From the NCBI RefSeq assembly GCF_001435295.1, contig NZ_CM003594.1:2562574-2626573 (forward strand): DNA of 64,000 nt. Reading direction: 5' to 3'. Below are positions 1,152 through 6,679 of this stretch, piece by piece. Position 1 is the stretch's first letter. Every line of letters starts with the position of its first letter. The notes beneath the pieces are model-generated. The model made no database searches and was not told where the DNA came from. It worked only from the letters and a program-made list of their open reading frames with translations. The translations under genes and the position numbers were made by a program. Source of the stretch: Psychrobacter sp. P11F6 (GTDB lineage Bacteria; Pseudomonadota; Gammaproteobacteria; Pseudomonadales; Moraxellaceae).

Positions 1152-1185
1152 CTTAACATCTTCTTAACAGCATACTTGTTACTGT
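1152..1185 (+). promoter_or_regulatory. PmrA-box-like operator and promoter of eptA
   Basis: A direct repeat CTTAAC-ATCTT-CTTAAC occupies 1152-1168, with half-sites 11 bases apart. This is the layout of the PmrA box known from enteric bacteria (YTTAAK-N5-YTTAAK). A -10-like TACTGT follows at 1180-1185, eleven bases after the second half-site, so the box would occupy the -35 region as expected for an OmpR-family activator. The same arrangement recurs at 5118-5151 before dgkA. Binding is inferred. Confidence 0.65.
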
Positions 1186-1226
1186 AAGGCATTACACTCC
1201 TTACCATCCTGTTGAGAAGTACTTGT

Positions 1227-2948
1227 ATGTCAATATCTCAAGCCGCCAAAATCGCTGCGCCCAAAGCCAATAAAAAAAGCCGCTCCCTAAGCAAGCTCTA
1301 TAATCGCGAGATTAATCTCAATCATCTGATCATAGTTGTTGCTCTGTACTTAGTAGCGACGGCGAATATTGGCTTTTTTGAACAAGTACTCAGCGTTTAT
1401 CCATTGAGCACAAACACGGGCTTTATTTTTTCCATCATAGGCTTATTATTTGGGCTGATGTGGTTGGTGTTGTCACTGCTGTGTTATCGCTCAACGGCAA
1501 AAGTAATGCTCATCATAATGGTGCTGATTGCAGCTATCTGTGGTTACTTTACCGACGCCTACGGGACGATATTTAATCGTGATATGCTCATTAACGGCTT
1601 ACAAACCGATCAAGCAGAAGCCATGGGATTGATGGCACCCAGTCTATTTATTCGCCTGTTTTTACTAGGTATAGTGCCTGCTTTCATGATTGGTAACATT
1701 CGTATAAAGCGATTGTCTTGGCAACAAGCAACCCTTCAAAAATCAGTCACCCTATTATTATCTATCGTCTTGCTAGCGGTGTGTCTGGTGCCATTTGGTG
1801 ACCAATACGCCAGCTTTTTTCGCCAGCATAAAATAGTCCGTAGTTATGTCAATCCTATTACCCCTGTTTATTCTGTCATCAAACTGGGTACTGATTATAT
1901 CGCTGAGCGCCGTCGTCCCGATACGCTAATCCCTCATGCTACAGATGCAAAACGCAGTATTACTTTTAACACTAGCAACACTAGCAACAGCGCTGTAAAA
2001 CCTAAGTTGATGGTATTTGTAGTAGGAGAAACCGTTCGTGCTGACCATATTGGCTTAAACGGTTACGAGCGCAACACCACGCCTTTGCTTTCAAAACAAT
2101 CAGACATCTACAGCCTTAAAGACGCCTCGTCATGCGGCACATCCACCGCCTATTCAGTACCCTGCATGTTTAGCTACGCCAATAGAGAAAATTATGACCC
2201 TGATAGCGCTAGCTATAATGAAAACGTGCTCGATACACTACACAAGCAAGGCGTCAATGTCGTTTGGCGAGACAATAACTCTAGCGCCAAAGGGGTGGCT
2301 GACCGCGTAACTTTTGAGGATTATAAAACAGCCGCGCTCAATCCAGATTGTGATATTGAGTGTCGAGACAGAGGCATGCTTGATGGTTTTGATAAACTCG
2401 TTAAGTCAGGCAGCTCAAAGAAAGAGACACCTAAAGACACACTTATTTTGCTGCATCAAATGGGCAATCATGGACCCGCCTATTTTAAGCGTTACCCTAA
2501 AGATTTTGCAGTATATCTGCCCGTCTGTATGACCAATGAGCTATCAAAATGCGACAACCAATCGGTTATCAATGGTTATGACAATGCCATTCGTTATACA
2601 GATTATTTTTTAAATAGCGTGATCGACACCTTAAAACCTTATGAGCAAGATTATGAGGTGGTGATGGTATATATTAGTGATCATGGAGAAAGTTTGGGCG
2701 AAAACAATATTTACTTGCATGGTCTACCATATGCTATTGCGCCAAATGCACAAAAGCACGTGCCAGTGATTATTTGGTCACCGACTGGCAACGGCATTGA
2801 TAGCAGCACTATTGCTAAAAGCAGCCTAGCTAACATGATTGATCAGCCTGTATCACATGATTTTATTACGCCAACCTTGCTTCAGTTTTTTGGTATCACC
2901 ACTGACGAAACCAAAGCAGCACCCACCTTTTTTAAAGTGGCTAATTGA
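1227..2948 (+). CDS. eptA: Phosphoethanolamine-lipid A transferase (EptA/PmrC type)
   Basis: A 573-residue inner-membrane enzyme that moves phosphoethanolamine from phosphatidylethanolamine to lipid A, lowering surface charge and polymyxin binding. Five hydrophobic helices fill roughly residues 30-195, followed by a periplasmic sulfatase-fold domain. Metal-site and catalytic motifs are visible: VVGETVRADHIGLNGYERN near 265, the SSCGTSTAYSVPC loop near 300 whose Thr is the usual nucleophile, LLHQMGNHGPAY, and YISDHGESLGENN near 482. Cys residues that normally form disulfides are present. The ATG at 1227 matches family length better than an in-frame TTG at 1212. It heads a cluster with its probable two-component regulators, 40 bases upstream of the regulator gene. 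Confidence 0.93.
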   Translation: MSISQAAKIAAPKANKKSRSLSKLYNREINLNHLIIVVALYLVATANIGFFEQVLSVYPLSTNTGFIFSIIGLLFGLMWLVLSLLCYRSTAKVMLIIMVLIAAICGYFTDAYGTIFNRDMLINGLQTDQAEAMGLMAPSLFIRLFLLGIVPAFMIGNIRIKRLSWQQATLQKSVTLLLSIVLLAVCLVPFGDQYASFFRQHKIVRSYVNPITPVYSVIKLGTDYIAERRRPDTLIPHATDAKRSITFNTSNTSNSAVKPKLMVFVVGETVRADHIGLNGYERNTTPLLSKQSDIYSLKDASSCGTSTAYSVPCMFSYANRENYDPDSASYNENVLDTLHKQGVNVVWRDNNSSAKGVADRVTFEDYKTAALNPDCDIECRDRGMLDGFDKLVKSGSSKKETPKDTLILLHQMGNHGPAYFKRYPKDFAVYLPVCMTNELSKCDNQSVINGYDNAIRYTDYFLNSVIDTLKPYEQDYEVVMVYISDHGESLGENNIYLHGLPYAIAPNAQKHVPVIIWSPTGNGIDSSTIAKSSLANMIDQPVSHDFITPTLLQFFGITTDETKAAPTFFKVAN

Positions 2949-2988
2949 ATTCTTTATCATCGCTCCGCCTTTTTAGGTAATAATACTC

Positions 2989-3675
2989 ATGTACAAGATA
3001 CTCATCATTGAAGACAATCCCGATATCGTCGCCAATATTTATGCTTTTTTTGAGCCGAAAGGCTTTGAGCTAGACAATGCCCATAATGGCATTAGTGGCT
3101 TAACGCTCGCATCGAATAATCGATATGACGTCATCTTGTTAGATGTCATGCTGCCGGGTATGGATGGCACTAAACTGTGCAAAAAGCTCAGGGAAGATCT
3201 ACATGACAAAACGCCAGTATTGATGCTGACCGCTCGCGATACGATTTTAGATAAAGTGGCAGGATTCGATAGTGGCGCTGACGATTATCTGGTTAAGCCT
3301 TTCTCATTGGTGGAATTAGAATCTCGTATTAAGGCTCTCATACGCCGACATAAAGATAATCATTTTGAGCATGGTTTAACCGTTGGCACATTGTCTTTAA
3401 ATCATAGTGAGCATACGATTACACGTGAAGGTAAGTCGCTAAAACTCACACCAACAGGCTTCAAAATACTACATACCTTGATGAGTGCGGCGCCGCGCGT
3501 GGTTAGCAAAACCGAGCTGGAAGAAAAAGTATGGGGCGAAGACATACCAAGCAGTGATGCATTGCGCACTCACATGCATGGGGTCCGTGCGCAGGTAGAT
3601 AAGCCGTTCGATAAAATCATGATAGTCACGTTGCCTGGTGTCGGTTATCAGATTATTGATCCAGATAAAGCCTAA
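2989..3675 (+). CDS. OmpR-family response regulator, PmrA-like
   Basis: A 228-residue two-domain regulator. The N-terminal receiver has the acidic pair ED (residues 8-9), the phospho-acceptor Asp52 in LLDVMLPGMDG, and a conserved Lys in DDYLVKPFS. The C-terminal half (about 130-225) is a winged-helix DNA-binding domain ending in TLPGVGYQI. It lies between eptA and the sensor kinase on the same strand, so it most likely controls eptA. The two CTTAAC/T direct repeats found before eptA and dgkA are the kind of site recognised by PmrA. Whether it is the orthologue of PmrA, QseB or another relative cannot be settled from sequence alone. Confidence 0.88.
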   Translation: MYKILIIEDNPDIVANIYAFFEPKGFELDNAHNGISGLTLASNNRYDVILLDVMLPGMDGTKLCKKLREDLHDKTPVLMLTARDTILDKVAGFDSGADDYLVKPFSLVELESRIKALIRRHKDNHFEHGLTVGTLSLNHSEHTITREGKSLKLTPTGFKILHTLMSAAPRVVSKTELEEKVWGEDIPSSDALRTHMHGVRAQVDKPFDKIMIVTLPGVGYQIIDPDKA

Positions 3676-3747
3676 AAAATCATCGGCTGATGTCCTTATT
3701 TGACTCTCACTGTCTTTCATATCGTCTTTCACAACGAAGTAAATACC

Positions 3748-5094
3748 ATGTTTAATATCGACTCCATCGCCAATAAGTTTCGACTCTCCTACTTGTTATT
3801 TGCCCTATTACTGTGTGCCACTTTCGTCAGTATTTTCATGTATGCCGAAGTCAGAATGGAGCAACAACTGGTCAAAGCTCGATTATTGCAGCAGTTAGAG
3901 CTTAGCCAAGAAAAAGAAGGCGATCAGCCTATTTATACCGCTGAACCGGGTATTAAAATTTATCGCTTCGATAACGCACCGAGCAATCTGCAAAAACTGG
4001 CCACCCAAACCGTACAAGAAATGCCCGTCACTGTCACCACTGAAAATGGTCAATCGACAACAGAGTTACATTTTTTTAATTATAAAAAAGACAAAGAAAA
4101 CTACATTTTAACCTACTTAGAAAACACTGAAATGGTGATGGGGAATTACCCTGTTTTGGCCATATTTGAGCATTTAGAAGACATATTTGCCAACGCCCTA
4201 AAAGTAGCGGTCATTTTGAGCTTATTGATTGCAGCGATATTTTCATCGCTGTCCTCCAAGCAAATCATTAAGCCTTTATTAGACTTAAAACAAGCTGTAG
4301 AAACAGATCATCGCAACTTGACGGAATTGACGCATCTGCCCTCCGAGGTTGGCGTGTTAGCACGCGCAATCGATGAAAAAAACCACAAACTTGAGCAGTA
4401 CCTCAAACGCGAGCAGCTATTTACTGGTGATGTCAGTCACGAGCTGCGCACGCCTTTGACGATTATCATGGGGGCATCAGAAGTATTGTCCTCACAACTA
4501 GAAAACGACCCTCACTTGAGCGCATTTGCCACTCGTATCAGTACGACCGCCAAAGAAACCTCGGAGATTATCAGCGCCTTATTATTGCTGTCTCGTGCTC
4601 CTGAAAAACTGGATGCACCGCCAACGTCTATCAATGACATCGCGTTAAATGAAGTACAGCGCTTAAATTACTTGCTTCGCCATAAGTCAGTCACCTGTAA
4701 AATAGTCGCAGAACAGCTGTATGTCGCACACGTACGACCTGAACTGCTAAAAATGGCACTGGGTAATTTGATAAAAAATGCGTTTCAGTACACCGATGAG
4801 GGTGAGGTCATCATCACTATCGATGCTGAAAAAATCACCGTCACTGATACTGGTCTAGGTATTCCTGAGGTGATGATGCCGCTGCTATATGAGAGATTTG
4901 AGCGTCTAGAGCAGCATTATAAAGACATCTCATTGGATACAGAATCGTCATCAGCAGCTGACGCCCATTATCCAGCAGAAGGTACAGGCTTGGGACTCAG
5001 TATCGTACAGCGCATCATGACACATATGGGCTGGCAGCTTACTCATCAAGTCAATCCGTTAGGTGGCAGTACTTTTATCATCAATTATCATTAG
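3748..5094 (+). CDS. Membrane sensor histidine kinase, PmrB-like partner
   Basis: A 448-residue sensor kinase with a transmembrane helix at about 13-33, a periplasmic loop of roughly 120 residues rich in Glu and Gln, a second helix near 150-170, and a cytoplasmic kinase core. The H-box DVSHELRTPL places the phospho-accepting His at residue 231. The ATPase part shows the N-box (LGNLIKNAFQYT), DTGLGIP and GTGLGLSIV near 412. The loop contains acidic clusters including EHLED, but I do not see a clear ExxE iron-binding pair like that of Salmonella PmrB. It starts 72 bases after the regulator. I preferred the ATG at 3748; an upstream TTG would add 16 residues with no signal character. Confidence 0.88.
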   Translation: MFNIDSIANKFRLSYLLFALLLCATFVSIFMYAEVRMEQQLVKARLLQQLELSQEKEGDQPIYTAEPGIKIYRFDNAPSNLQKLATQTVQEMPVTVTTENGQSTTELHFFNYKKDKENYILTYLENTEMVMGNYPVLAIFEHLEDIFANALKVAVILSLLIAAIFSSLSSKQIIKPLLDLKQAVETDHRNLTELTHLPSEVGVLARAIDEKNHKLEQYLKREQLFTGDVSHELRTPLTIIMGASEVLSSQLENDPHLSAFATRISTTAKETSEIISALLLLSRAPEKLDAPPTSINDIALNEVQRLNYLLRHKSVTCKIVAEQLYVAHVRPELLKMALGNLIKNAFQYTDEGEVIITIDAEKITVTDTGLGIPEVMMPLLYERFERLEQHYKDISLDTESSSAADAHYPAEGTGLGLSIVQRIMTHMGWQLTHQVNPLGGSTFIINYH

Positions 5095-5117
5095 AGAAGA
5101 TCTCTATTTTAAAAAAG

Positions 5118-5151
5118 CTTAACGTTTTCTTAATGCCTGCCCGCTTATACT
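5118..5151 (+). promoter_or_regulatory. PmrA-box-like operator and promoter of dgkA-PAP2
   Basis: CTTAAC-GTTTT-CTTAAT spans 5118-5134, again two hexamers with a five-base spacer. A -10-like TATACT lies at 5146-5151, eleven bases after the second half-site, exactly as upstream of eptA. This suggests that the same response regulator drives dgkA and the PAP2 gene from a second promoter. The solo IS end at 5154-5178 begins just after this -10. Confidence 0.65.
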
Positions 5152-5153
5152 TA

Positions 5154-5178
5154 GGGCATGTTGAACATTCGACCATGG
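5154..5178. repeat. Solo terminal repeat related to the 854-1118 element
   Basis: GGGCATGTTGAACATTCGAC followed by CATGG resembles the left end and subterminal bases of the element at 854 (GGGTCTGTTAAACATTCGAC, then CACGG). No matching inverted end is seen before dgkA, so this is a single end left by decay or incomplete excision. It lies in the presumed 5' leader of dgkA. Confidence 0.5.
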
Positions 5179-5243: not shown

Positions 5244-5717
5244 ATGAATAAAGCAAACCCTATTAATCTTGAAGACCAGTCGGCCAGTCGTGGGGTTTTA
5301 AGCCCAATAACAGGCAAAAAACAACTGCTATCCCATAGCTATGCCAGTGAGGCCAAGGGTAAAACAGGATTTTACCGCATTATAAAAGCCGCTGGTTACT
5401 CTCTGGACGGCTTTAAAGCAGCTTACAAATTTGAGGCGGCTTTTCGACAAGTATTTTGGCTTAATCTCATATTATTCACGGCTATTATATTGTGCCCTTT
5501 CACTATCAGCGTCAAAATGCTACTGGTCGTCGCTTCTTTCTTATCGTTAATTGTCGAACTCATTAATACTGGAATCGAAGCCAGTGTCGATCACACATCG
5601 ACCGCCAAGCATCCACTGGCAAAGATAGCCAAAGATGTCGGCTCTGCGGCGCAATTTTTGGCATTACTGCTGCTATTTATCTTGTGGATGATGGCATTAT
5701 TGAGTGTTGTATTTTGA
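5244..5717 (+). CDS. dgkA: Diacylglycerol kinase, DgkA type
   Basis: A 157-residue inner-membrane enzyme that phosphorylates diacylglycerol to phosphatidate. The core, from about residue 50, has three hydrophobic helices and the family signatures FEAAFRQ, VELINTGIEASVDH and AKDVGSAAQFLAL; the Glu and Asn of ELINTGIE are the expected active-site residues. The N-terminal extension of about 35 polar residues is longer than in the 120-residue E. coli enzyme. EptA-type transferases leave diacylglycerol, so DgkA next to eptA fits lipid recycling. I chose the ATG at 5244; an upstream TTG at 5214 is possible. The end overlaps the next gene. Confidence 0.92.
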   Translation: MNKANPINLEDQSASRGVLSPITGKKQLLSHSYASEAKGKTGFYRIIKAAGYSLDGFKAAYKFEAAFRQVFWLNLILFTAIILCPFTISVKMLLVVASFLSLIVELINTGIEASVDHTSTAKHPLAKIAKDVGSAAQFLALLLLFILWMMALLSVVF

Positions 5718-6505
5718 AAATATATTCAGCCAATGGAGTCTGGCTTAAACTCCTATGTTTGACCATCATAGCGACACTGCTGTTTGAGCACAGCCAATTA
5801 GACATTCATATTAGTGAGCTTTTTTACACTAATGGACACTGGCTACTAGAAAAAGGCACACAACCTTTTGCCTTTATCTTTTATGACTTGCCTAAATTGC
5901 TACTCATCTTGCTTGGCATTTATCTCATAGCCGTTCTAATTCTGAGACATAGACAGAATTCAGACATCAATCTGGTAATAAAAAATACTAAGTACGATAA
6001 ATTGCTCACGCCTTTATCCACGCGTGAAATAAGTTATCTACTGCTTGTTTTAATTGCCGTTCCCAGTATGATTGCGCTACTCAAAGGTGTGACTCATGTC
6101 AGTTGCCCCAATCATTTAATACTGTTTGGTGGCGACTTGCCTTATCTAAATATTTGGCAAAATATAGTCGCTAACACGCCTGCCAAGTGCTTCCCAGCGG
6201 CTCATGCCAGTGCCGGATTTTCTCTATATGGCTTGGCATTTTTACCCACTCTACATCAGTATCGCTATAGAATATTTGAAATAGTCACGGTCGTAGGATG
6301 GACGATGGGACTGTATAAGATGCTGTTTGGTGATCATTTTTTTAGTCATACATTAGTATCGATGCTTCTATCATTGACCATAACCTGCGCGCTTGCAACG
6401 CTATTTTTTAAATACCCAGTAGCGAATAAAGCCAACAGTATCAATGCTAATGGCAAAAAACCTGATGCGGCAAGCTTTCAAAAATCGTCGAAAACCCAAT
6501 CTTAA
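5684..6505 (+). CDS. PAP2-family membrane lipid phosphatase
   Basis: About 273 residues with five or six hydrophobic helices. The PAP2 catalytic segments are present in variant form: KCFPAAHASAGF around 165-176 (in place of the usual PSGH) and KMLFGDHFFSHTLVS around 209-223 carrying the second catalytic His. The family dephosphorylates lipid phosphates such as phosphatidate, phosphatidylglycerol phosphate or undecaprenyl pyrophosphate. It overlaps dgkA by 34 bases if the ATG at 5684 is used. A TTG at 5714 would overlap the dgkA TGA in a TTGA arrangement typical of translational coupling, and since the first ten codons look non-native, that later start is a real alternative. A PAP2 gene also accompanies the mobile mcr-1 gene. 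Confidence 0.85.
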   Translation: MDDGIIECCILKIYSANGVWLKLLCLTIIATLLFEHSQLDIHISELFYTNGHWLLEKGTQPFAFIFYDLPKLLLILLGIYLIAVLILRHRQNSDINLVIKNTKYDKLLTPLSTREISYLLLVLIAVPSMIALLKGVTHVSCPNHLILFGGDLPYLNIWQNIVANTPAKCFPAAHASAGFSLYGLAFLPTLHQYRYRIFEIVTVVGWTMGLYKMLFGDHFFSHTLVSMLLSLTITCALATLFFKYPVANKANSINANGKKPDAASFQKSSKTQS

Positions 6506-6679
6506 CTGTTGAATAATAGCCAAATTAACAATGATACCCTTATGAAAATAAAGCTACTAAGCATTTGATAAATAATGTATAAATAGTTATTGCTGACTGA
6601 CTTAACATTGAGTAACAGCATGGATTGCGCTCGTCGACGACGTTCTTTATTTATCAATAGCCCGCAAAGGAATGTAGCT

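Follow-up and report, generated by a model that had tools for sequence, protein, structure and literature searches.

Putative shared control boxes ahead of eptA and dgkA in Psychrobacter, next to an OmpR-family regulator that is probably not PmrA

The 64,000-nucleotide stretch of the Psychrobacter sp. P11F6 genome analysed here (the window; contig NZ_CM003594.1, positions 2,562,574 to 2,626,573) carries near its start a row of five genes, all on the plus strand from position 1227 and followed by a YceI-family gene. The first, eptA (1227-2948), encodes a phosphoethanolamine--lipid A transferase identified by the curated NCBIfam model NF028537 (719.9 bits; cut-off 500) and the Pfam domains EptA_B_N and Sulfatase, its score of 430 against the narrower EptA model PRK11598 falling below the required 660. 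It is followed by genes for an OmpR-family response regulator (2989-3675; Pfam Response_reg and Trans_reg_C) and a sensor histidine kinase (3748-5094; Pfam HisKA and HATPase_c) and, 149 nt beyond the kinase stop codon, by dgkA (5244-5717), encoding a prokaryotic diacylglycerol kinase (Pfam DAGK_prokar, 88.7 bits; gathering score 22.3) without a match among NCBIfam models. The last, pap2 (5714-6505), encodes a lipid A phosphatase of the PAP2 family (361.6 bits with NCBIfam NF028538, cut-off 275; Pfam PAP2), and its start, assigned to a TTG codon, overlaps dgkA by 4 nt. Two direct repeats in this row are, we consider with good confidence, boxes of the encoded regulator, which is predicted to drive eptA-regulator-kinase from one and dgkA-pap2 from the other; the two lipid operons would very probably be switched on together.

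The first repeat, CTTAAC-N5-CTTAAC (CTTAACatcttCTTAAC), lies at 1152-1168 upstream of eptA, and the second, CTTAAC-N5-CTTAAT (CTTAACgttttCTTAAT), at 5118-5134 upstream of dgkA, both on the plus strand. Both were read directly in the sequence where a first-pass annotation had placed them, as was the spacing of exactly 11 nt that it reported between each repeat and a -10-like hexamer. At eptA this hexamer, TACTGT (1180-1185), belongs to an extended -10 element, TGtTACTGT (1177-1185), and at dgkA it is TATACT (5146-5151). The PmrA box of enteric bacteria is a YTTAAK-N5-YTTAAK direct repeat by the -35 region. The likeness to this consensus that the annotation had drawn did not extend to the last base of the half-site, C being the final base of three of the window's four half-sites where K stands for G or T, and the boxes likewise depart from the HTTAAD-N5-HTTAAD form of Acinetobacter-type systems.

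Within the window, CTTAAY-N5-CTTAAY matches twice, against a mean of 0.09 in dinucleotide shuffles that never gave two or more. In the genome-wide scan proposed in the first-pass annotation, the bare motif occurs four times in the 3.51-Mb host genome, with two matches for a reversed-pattern control and about five predicted from the shuffle rate, and its enrichment was dropped as evidence because four per 3.5 Mb is close to chance. Combined with the -10 element (CTTAAC-N5-CTTAAY, 11 nt, TAnnnT), the box was found with no mismatch only at the two window sites, with none at one mismatch and 22 at two; at the stringency of this strict pattern, the host-genome regulon consists of the eptA and dgkA promoters only. 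The 22 two-mismatch sites are not claimed as further members, given 15 at up to two mismatches in the control, and a looser search (TTAA-N7-TTAA followed 10-12 nt beyond its second half-site by TAnnnT) proved too noisy, with 31 sites against 16 in its control.

Across 105 Psychrobacter genomes, the strict box and -10 pattern was identified at 184 sites in 78 genomes, 47 of which hold exactly two, compared with 2 sites for the pattern read backwards. Conservation was followed in 67 loci, comprising the window, 65 loci designated L005-L069, and L075. The box precedes eptA exactly in 61 of these and with one mismatch in 4; the two eptA loci without it, L064 and the Moraxella locus L067, both lack a linked regulator. 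Ahead of dgkA, the exact repeat is present in all 50 loci whose retrieved stretch included a dgkA. In a footprint of promoters anchored on the repeat only, which left out L067 and L043, both <55% identical to the query, as well as L064, which offered no anchor, and took the nearer of two boxes in L032, L040, L054 and L055, TAnnnT recurred at the same 11-nt distance in 65/65 eptA and 47/49 dgkA promoters, the other two reading CATACT. The eptA promoters share a conserved TG ahead of the -10 element, and the dgkA promoters mostly have the consensus-like TATACT (38/49). Mean information content was 1.96 bits in the box versus 0.35 in the flanks at eptA, and 1.92 versus 0.24 at dgkA. With the sixth base left free, the first half-site ended in C in all 111 exact boxes (61/61 at eptA and 50/50 at dgkA), and the second in C in 61/61 at eptA and in either C (28) or T (22) at dgkA. 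The four loci with two boxes ahead of dgkA carry two exact repeats some 200 nt apart, with -10 elements CATACT and TATCAT.

The box is also found largely where the two-component system is found. A kinase ortholog (E below 1e-100) was identified in 78 of the 105 genomes; exact box and kinase gene occur together in 75, with neither in 24, the kinase only in 3, and the box only in 3 (Fisher p 2.5e-17, overstated since the genomes are not independent). A similar distribution was obtained for dgkA and the kinase gene (both in 75, neither in 25, discordant in 3 and 2; p 1.1e-18, overstated for the same reason). The kinase-only genomes (G001, G071 and G102) have boxes with one mismatch, and among the box-only genomes G016 carries its box before eptA without the regulator-kinase pair, the boxes of G032 and G100 preceding unrelated genes, where they are probably chance occurrences. 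G016 (locus L063) is Psychrobacter frigidicola, in which eptA has an exact box and neither a kinase ortholog nor a dgkA match was found.

A second, separate promoter for dgkA, as put forward in the first-pass annotation, is supported by the retention of box and -10 element at dgkA, also where the genes lie apart. In six loci (L031, L032, L040, L043, L054 and L055) a distance of 0.6-4.5 kb separates dgkA from the kinase gene, with an exact repeat still near dgkA, and an exact repeat likewise stands before dgkA in L037, whose stretch yielded no kinase gene. The box was also found with pap2: where this gene is divergent from eptA (L222 and L226) a one-mismatch box precedes it, and in G096 (L332), in which dgkA has been lost and pap2 kept, the box before pap2 is exact. 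These arrangements bear on the alternative that survives best, in which the dgkA box is genuine but of secondary importance and dgkA-pap2 is expressed mainly by read-through from eptA-regulator-kinase, the coupling then being provided by the operon. Consistent with read-through, the kinase gene and dgkA lie on the same strand with only the 149-nt gap between them, in which a scan found no terminator-like site on the plus strand. However, box and consensus-like TATACT are kept while other intergenic sequence changes, and the repeat persists when 0.6-4.5 kb intervene, such that we regard read-through as the main route to be unlikely. Two genomes show disrupted forms of the locus. In G061, which holds locus L037, the regulator gene lies beside eptA and the best kinase match some 560 kb away beside a short dgkA-like remnant, so that the operon seems to have been split; in G051 (C40:50960-52932) both the kinase gene and dgkA are matched as two separate pieces, and one kinase piece contains two in-frame TAA codons, which suggests pseudogenes or assembly errors.

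The first-pass annotation had also taken regulator and box to be of the enteric PmrA type, and this part of its account is not supported. In favour of a genuine PmrA/PmrB pair, like those of enteric bacteria and Acinetobacter, acting on an ordinary PmrA box, the regulator is encoded in one row with eptA and a histidine kinase, as in the E. coli order eptA-basR-basS; the box has the same layout, a direct repeat with a TTAA core and an 11-bp period beside the -10/-35 region; and BasR chains rank third and fourth among 12 matches in the PDB. Against it, the regulator scored 167.7 bits with the PmrA equivalog model (NF007928), whose cut-off is 330, and the kinase 97.5 bits with the PmrB model against 314, both far below. 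Klebsiella PmrA is described as reading DNA through Asn188, Asn196 and Arg210, with alanine at any of these weakening binding and abolishing activity (PMC4660055). E. coli BasR keeps all three residues, and the regulators of a genus of the same family (g15) retain Asn, His or Asn, and Arg at these positions in 12/12 cases, whereas in the regulators of the Psychrobacter loci (63/63, a set that includes L049, from a record labelled Planctomycetia, and leaves out L074 and L082) they are replaced by Asp, Gly/Ser/Thr and Pro/Ala/Thr/Ser, respectively. In a tree of 27 chosen regulators, which drew long-branch warnings, the Psychrobacter sequences formed a clade (100/98) with L074 (Spongiibacteraceae) and L082 (Colwellia), two regulators also encoded beside eptA-pap2-dgkA, apart from the set containing BasR, QseB, PhoP and the g15 PmrA-type regulators (100/97). 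The half-site ending in C points in the same direction. Together, the profile scores, replaced contacts, tree position and half-site probably rule out a true PmrA, and we consider this alternative improbable. Elsewhere, the best regulator in the first comparison genus (that of G114, with four genomes) was 43% identical, and the source names among the 120 homologs listed were all generic. The regulator would thus work as PmrA does without belonging to the PmrA group: it is probably PmrA-like by place and inferred role, not by sequence group, and probably does the job of PmrA from another OmpR-family lineage.

It is equally improbable, in our estimate, that another OmpR-family regulator recognises the box, with the neighbouring pair linked to eptA for other reasons. 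TTAA repeats do serve other regulators, such as the TTAAG-N6-TTAAG box of the response regulator BqsR (PMC4682146), and G016 has an eptA box and no kinase ortholog. Against this, box and kinase gene occur together in 75 genomes and are both missing from 24, and in the Psychrobacter loci where the regulator gene was found beside eptA, the operon has an upstream box that is exact or differs by one mismatch. The boxes described here were themselves considered as BqsR boxes and rejected, their half-sites being TTAAC or TTAAT in place of the pentamer TTAAG. That the repeats arose by chance in AT-rich DNA, as the roughly chance number of bare motifs in the host genome might be taken to mean, is virtually dismissed by the conservation of box with -10 element and the 184 sites against 2 genus-wide.

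A number of observations weigh against assigning eptA and dgkA to one regulon under this regulator. G016 carries the eptA box without the kinase gene, and the eptA of L064 has neither box nor linked regulator. Among 19 dgkA stretches checked as second copies, unlinked or oddly spaced, 14 lack a repeat within two mismatches (one of them, in G087, being readable for only 173 nt); these include the only dgkA match of six kinase-bearing genomes (G006, G044, G067, G074, G087 and G102), two genes in kinase-less genomes (G077 and G078), and six second copies. As far as these stretches show, some dgkA copies are thus boxless and stand apart from the regulon, and the coupling does not hold throughout. 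The remaining five have a repeat, four of them exact, with CATACT or CATAAT as -10 element, and one with a single mismatch and TATACT. Further, the co-occurrence analysis counts genomes and not independent losses, so that its p values overstate the case; the tree that separates the regulator from PmrA is long-branched and includes only a few named references; and, with no terminator-like site found by the scan of the plus strand between the kinase gene and dgkA, transcription from the upstream operon may read through into dgkA. In 15 loci that do not belong to the system (L067, L070-L074 and L076-L084), the 500 nt ahead of eptA held a single TTAA-N6-8-TTAA repeat, in L076, with CATCAT and not TAnnnT at 11 nt, and no box was found before dgkA in five other Moraxellaceae (0/5), a count that left out a sixth stretch, L261, whose sequence was unreadable in frame.

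On balance, the co-regulon of eptA and dgkA appears well supported by these comparisons, though not universal. Of the single regulon of lipid A modification and lipid recycling that the first-pass annotation proposed, the regulon itself is favoured by the conserved box and -10 element, the co-occurrence with the kinase gene (75/3/3/24), and the box that follows dgkA or pap2; the naming of its regulator as PmrA is not. We infer binding, activation, the direction of control and the enzyme roles, and envisage the following sequence of events. Once phosphorylated by its partner kinase, the regulator would occupy, as a head-to-tail dimer, a pair of CTTAAC-type half-sites that are spaced by 11 bp and overlap the -35 position, so as to recruit RNA polymerase to the -10 element 11 nt downstream at both promoters. 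Activation of the eptA-regulator-kinase promoter would make the regulator activate itself, with dgkA-pap2 being activated from its own separate promoter. By the established roles of these families, EptA would take phosphoethanolamine from phosphatidylethanolamine, leaving diacylglycerol for DgkA to convert to phosphatidic acid, and the PAP2 enzyme would have the phosphate of a lipid or of lipid A as its substrate. Two promoters under one regulator would keep modification and clean-up in step.

Coregulation of eptA and dgkA is already known in kind, as E. coli dgkA is reported to be under BasRS control (Wahl 2011, cited in PMC8138132) and DgkA is named as a BasR target in PMC8415914; what is new here is a regulator that is probably not PmrA, an altered box, and an extended regulon. 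The enteric PmrA/BasR system shares with that of Psychrobacter the single gene row of eptA and two-component system and a direct-repeat box at the promoter, which upstream of E. coli eptA reads CTTAAG-N5-CTTAAT. It differs in that the first Psychrobacter half-site ends in C, the base-contact residues are replaced, and the Psychrobacter dgkA is linked, with a PAP2 gene as its partner; in E. coli, TTAA-N7-TTAA was not found with up to one mismatch in the 171 nt upstream of dgkA. Acinetobacter-type PmrCAB, for which PMC12654582 gives the box consensus HTTAAD-N5-HTTAAD, has the same order of eptA, regulator and kinase. We infer that g15, with its pmrCAB-like gene order, is Acinetobacter. HTTAAG-N5-TTTAAG precedes eptA in 11 of its 12 stretches, and HTTAAD-N5-HTTAAD lies within about 200 nt upstream of 7 of 11 dgkA genes (shuffle mean 0.26, maximum 3). 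Unlike Psychrobacter, however, the g15 half-site ends in G, its regulators are only 33-38% identical to that of the window, and dgkA lies outside the operon, 10 of the 11 being far away or on another contig and the remaining one at 3 kb on the opposite strand.

Similar couplings have been described under other regulators. In Vibrio vulnificus, CarRS is reported to drive eptA and dgkA as one two-component system through a dgkA-eptA-mdoB operon (PMC10433830); there the coupling is by operon, and the proposed motif is GACA-N6-TACA. The ColRS regulon of Pseudomonas putida includes DgkA (PP1636) and the phosphoethanolamine transferase CptA (PP2579) (PMC4074579), again with a different regulator and at separate loci. 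Mobile mcr-1-pap2 and mcr-3-dgkA cassettes, in which the transferase travels with PAP2 or DgkA (PMC7559476 and PMC10285318), differ by lacking a dedicated regulator; PAP2 or DgkA in such cassettes is said to raise resistance slightly, with the two-gene constructs being cotranscribed (PMC7559476). A search of the literature on Psychrobacter with pmrAB, eptA or diacylglycerol kinase returned no article title on such a regulon, subscription papers being mostly outside its coverage.

Hand-sorting of the 184 exact sites placed 31 elsewhere than at eptA, dgkA or the usual place of dgkA, and all 31 were examined, with family names taken from Pfam for representatives and from similarity for the rest. 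Few types of envelope or signalling gene account for 27 of them, which suggests that the regulon is wider in species other than the host, with the next gene encoding a DUF347 membrane protein at 12 sites, YceI at 5, Lipoprotein_15 at 3, cytochrome b561 at 3, PAP2 at 2, and DedA and another OmpR-type regulator at 1 each. Four are unexplained, namely one of the two in G027, those in G032 and G100, which precede genes outside this shared list, and that in G092, which lies only 209 nt before a contig end. A box with one mismatch was found at four more DedA genes (L181, L183, L220 and L221). A literature search on COG4705 with two-component systems found no paper. In the window, CTTAACattgaGTAACA at 6601-6617 lies shortly before yceI, a gene preceded by an exact box in five other genomes, and may represent a decayed box.

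Mobile DNA was also identified at the locus. A MITE-like insertion of about 270 bp (850-1122), with 22-nt inverted ends (TTAGGGTCTGTT) that are 95% complementary, lies some 30 bp upstream of the eptA box and is not part of it. The element is absent from the close relatives L010 and L057, in which the flanks align, and present in six others, and elsewhere in the genome there are two more nearly complete copies, 74% and 68% identical, as well as partial ones. A relic of the same inverted-repeat end (that at 850-871) was found at 5151-5178 on the plus strand as a direct repeat (86%; a pattern match with 2 mismatches), and is absent from L006, L007 and L010. Its first base coincides with the last one of the dgkA -10 element, so that the predicted dgkA start and leader would be insertion-derived in this strain; box and -10 element remain intact. 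Across six differently named records (L044, L047 and L049-L052), the eptA-regulator-kinase segment is 99.5-100% identical over 4 kb; L049 and L052 have in common a 5.86-kb block from eptA through pap2 with unrelated flanks, L047, L051 and L052 also share 6.5 kb ahead of the segment, and several genomes hold the near-identical segment beside another copy of the system. From these alignments, the eptA-to-pap2 segment looks to have been moved horizontally, regulator and boxes included.

We tentatively suggest, at somewhat below even confidence, that PmrA has been replaced in Psychrobacter by a non-orthologous OmpR-family regulator with the same job and the same layout, the half-site C in place of G or T being matched by changed recognition-helix residues. 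Such a replacement would mean that the eptA-dgkA coupling has been rebuilt under several non-orthologous regulators, and the boxed dgkA, mostly kept or lost with the system, may be dedicated to clean-up after EptA. A TTAA-type "PmrA box" beside eptA is, by way of warning, insufficient to identify PmrA. One diacylglycerol is left over from each phosphoethanolamine that EptA transfers, and why mobile colistin-resistance genes are accompanied by dgkA or pap2 is still debated. Across most of the genus, EptA, DgkA and PAP2 would be tied by one recognisable control box, and Psychrobacter offers natural cases in which genes have been moved or lost with the box following, alongside other dgkA copies that stand outside it; the shared box and these cases thus make the proposition that EptA needs DgkA and PAP2 directly testable.

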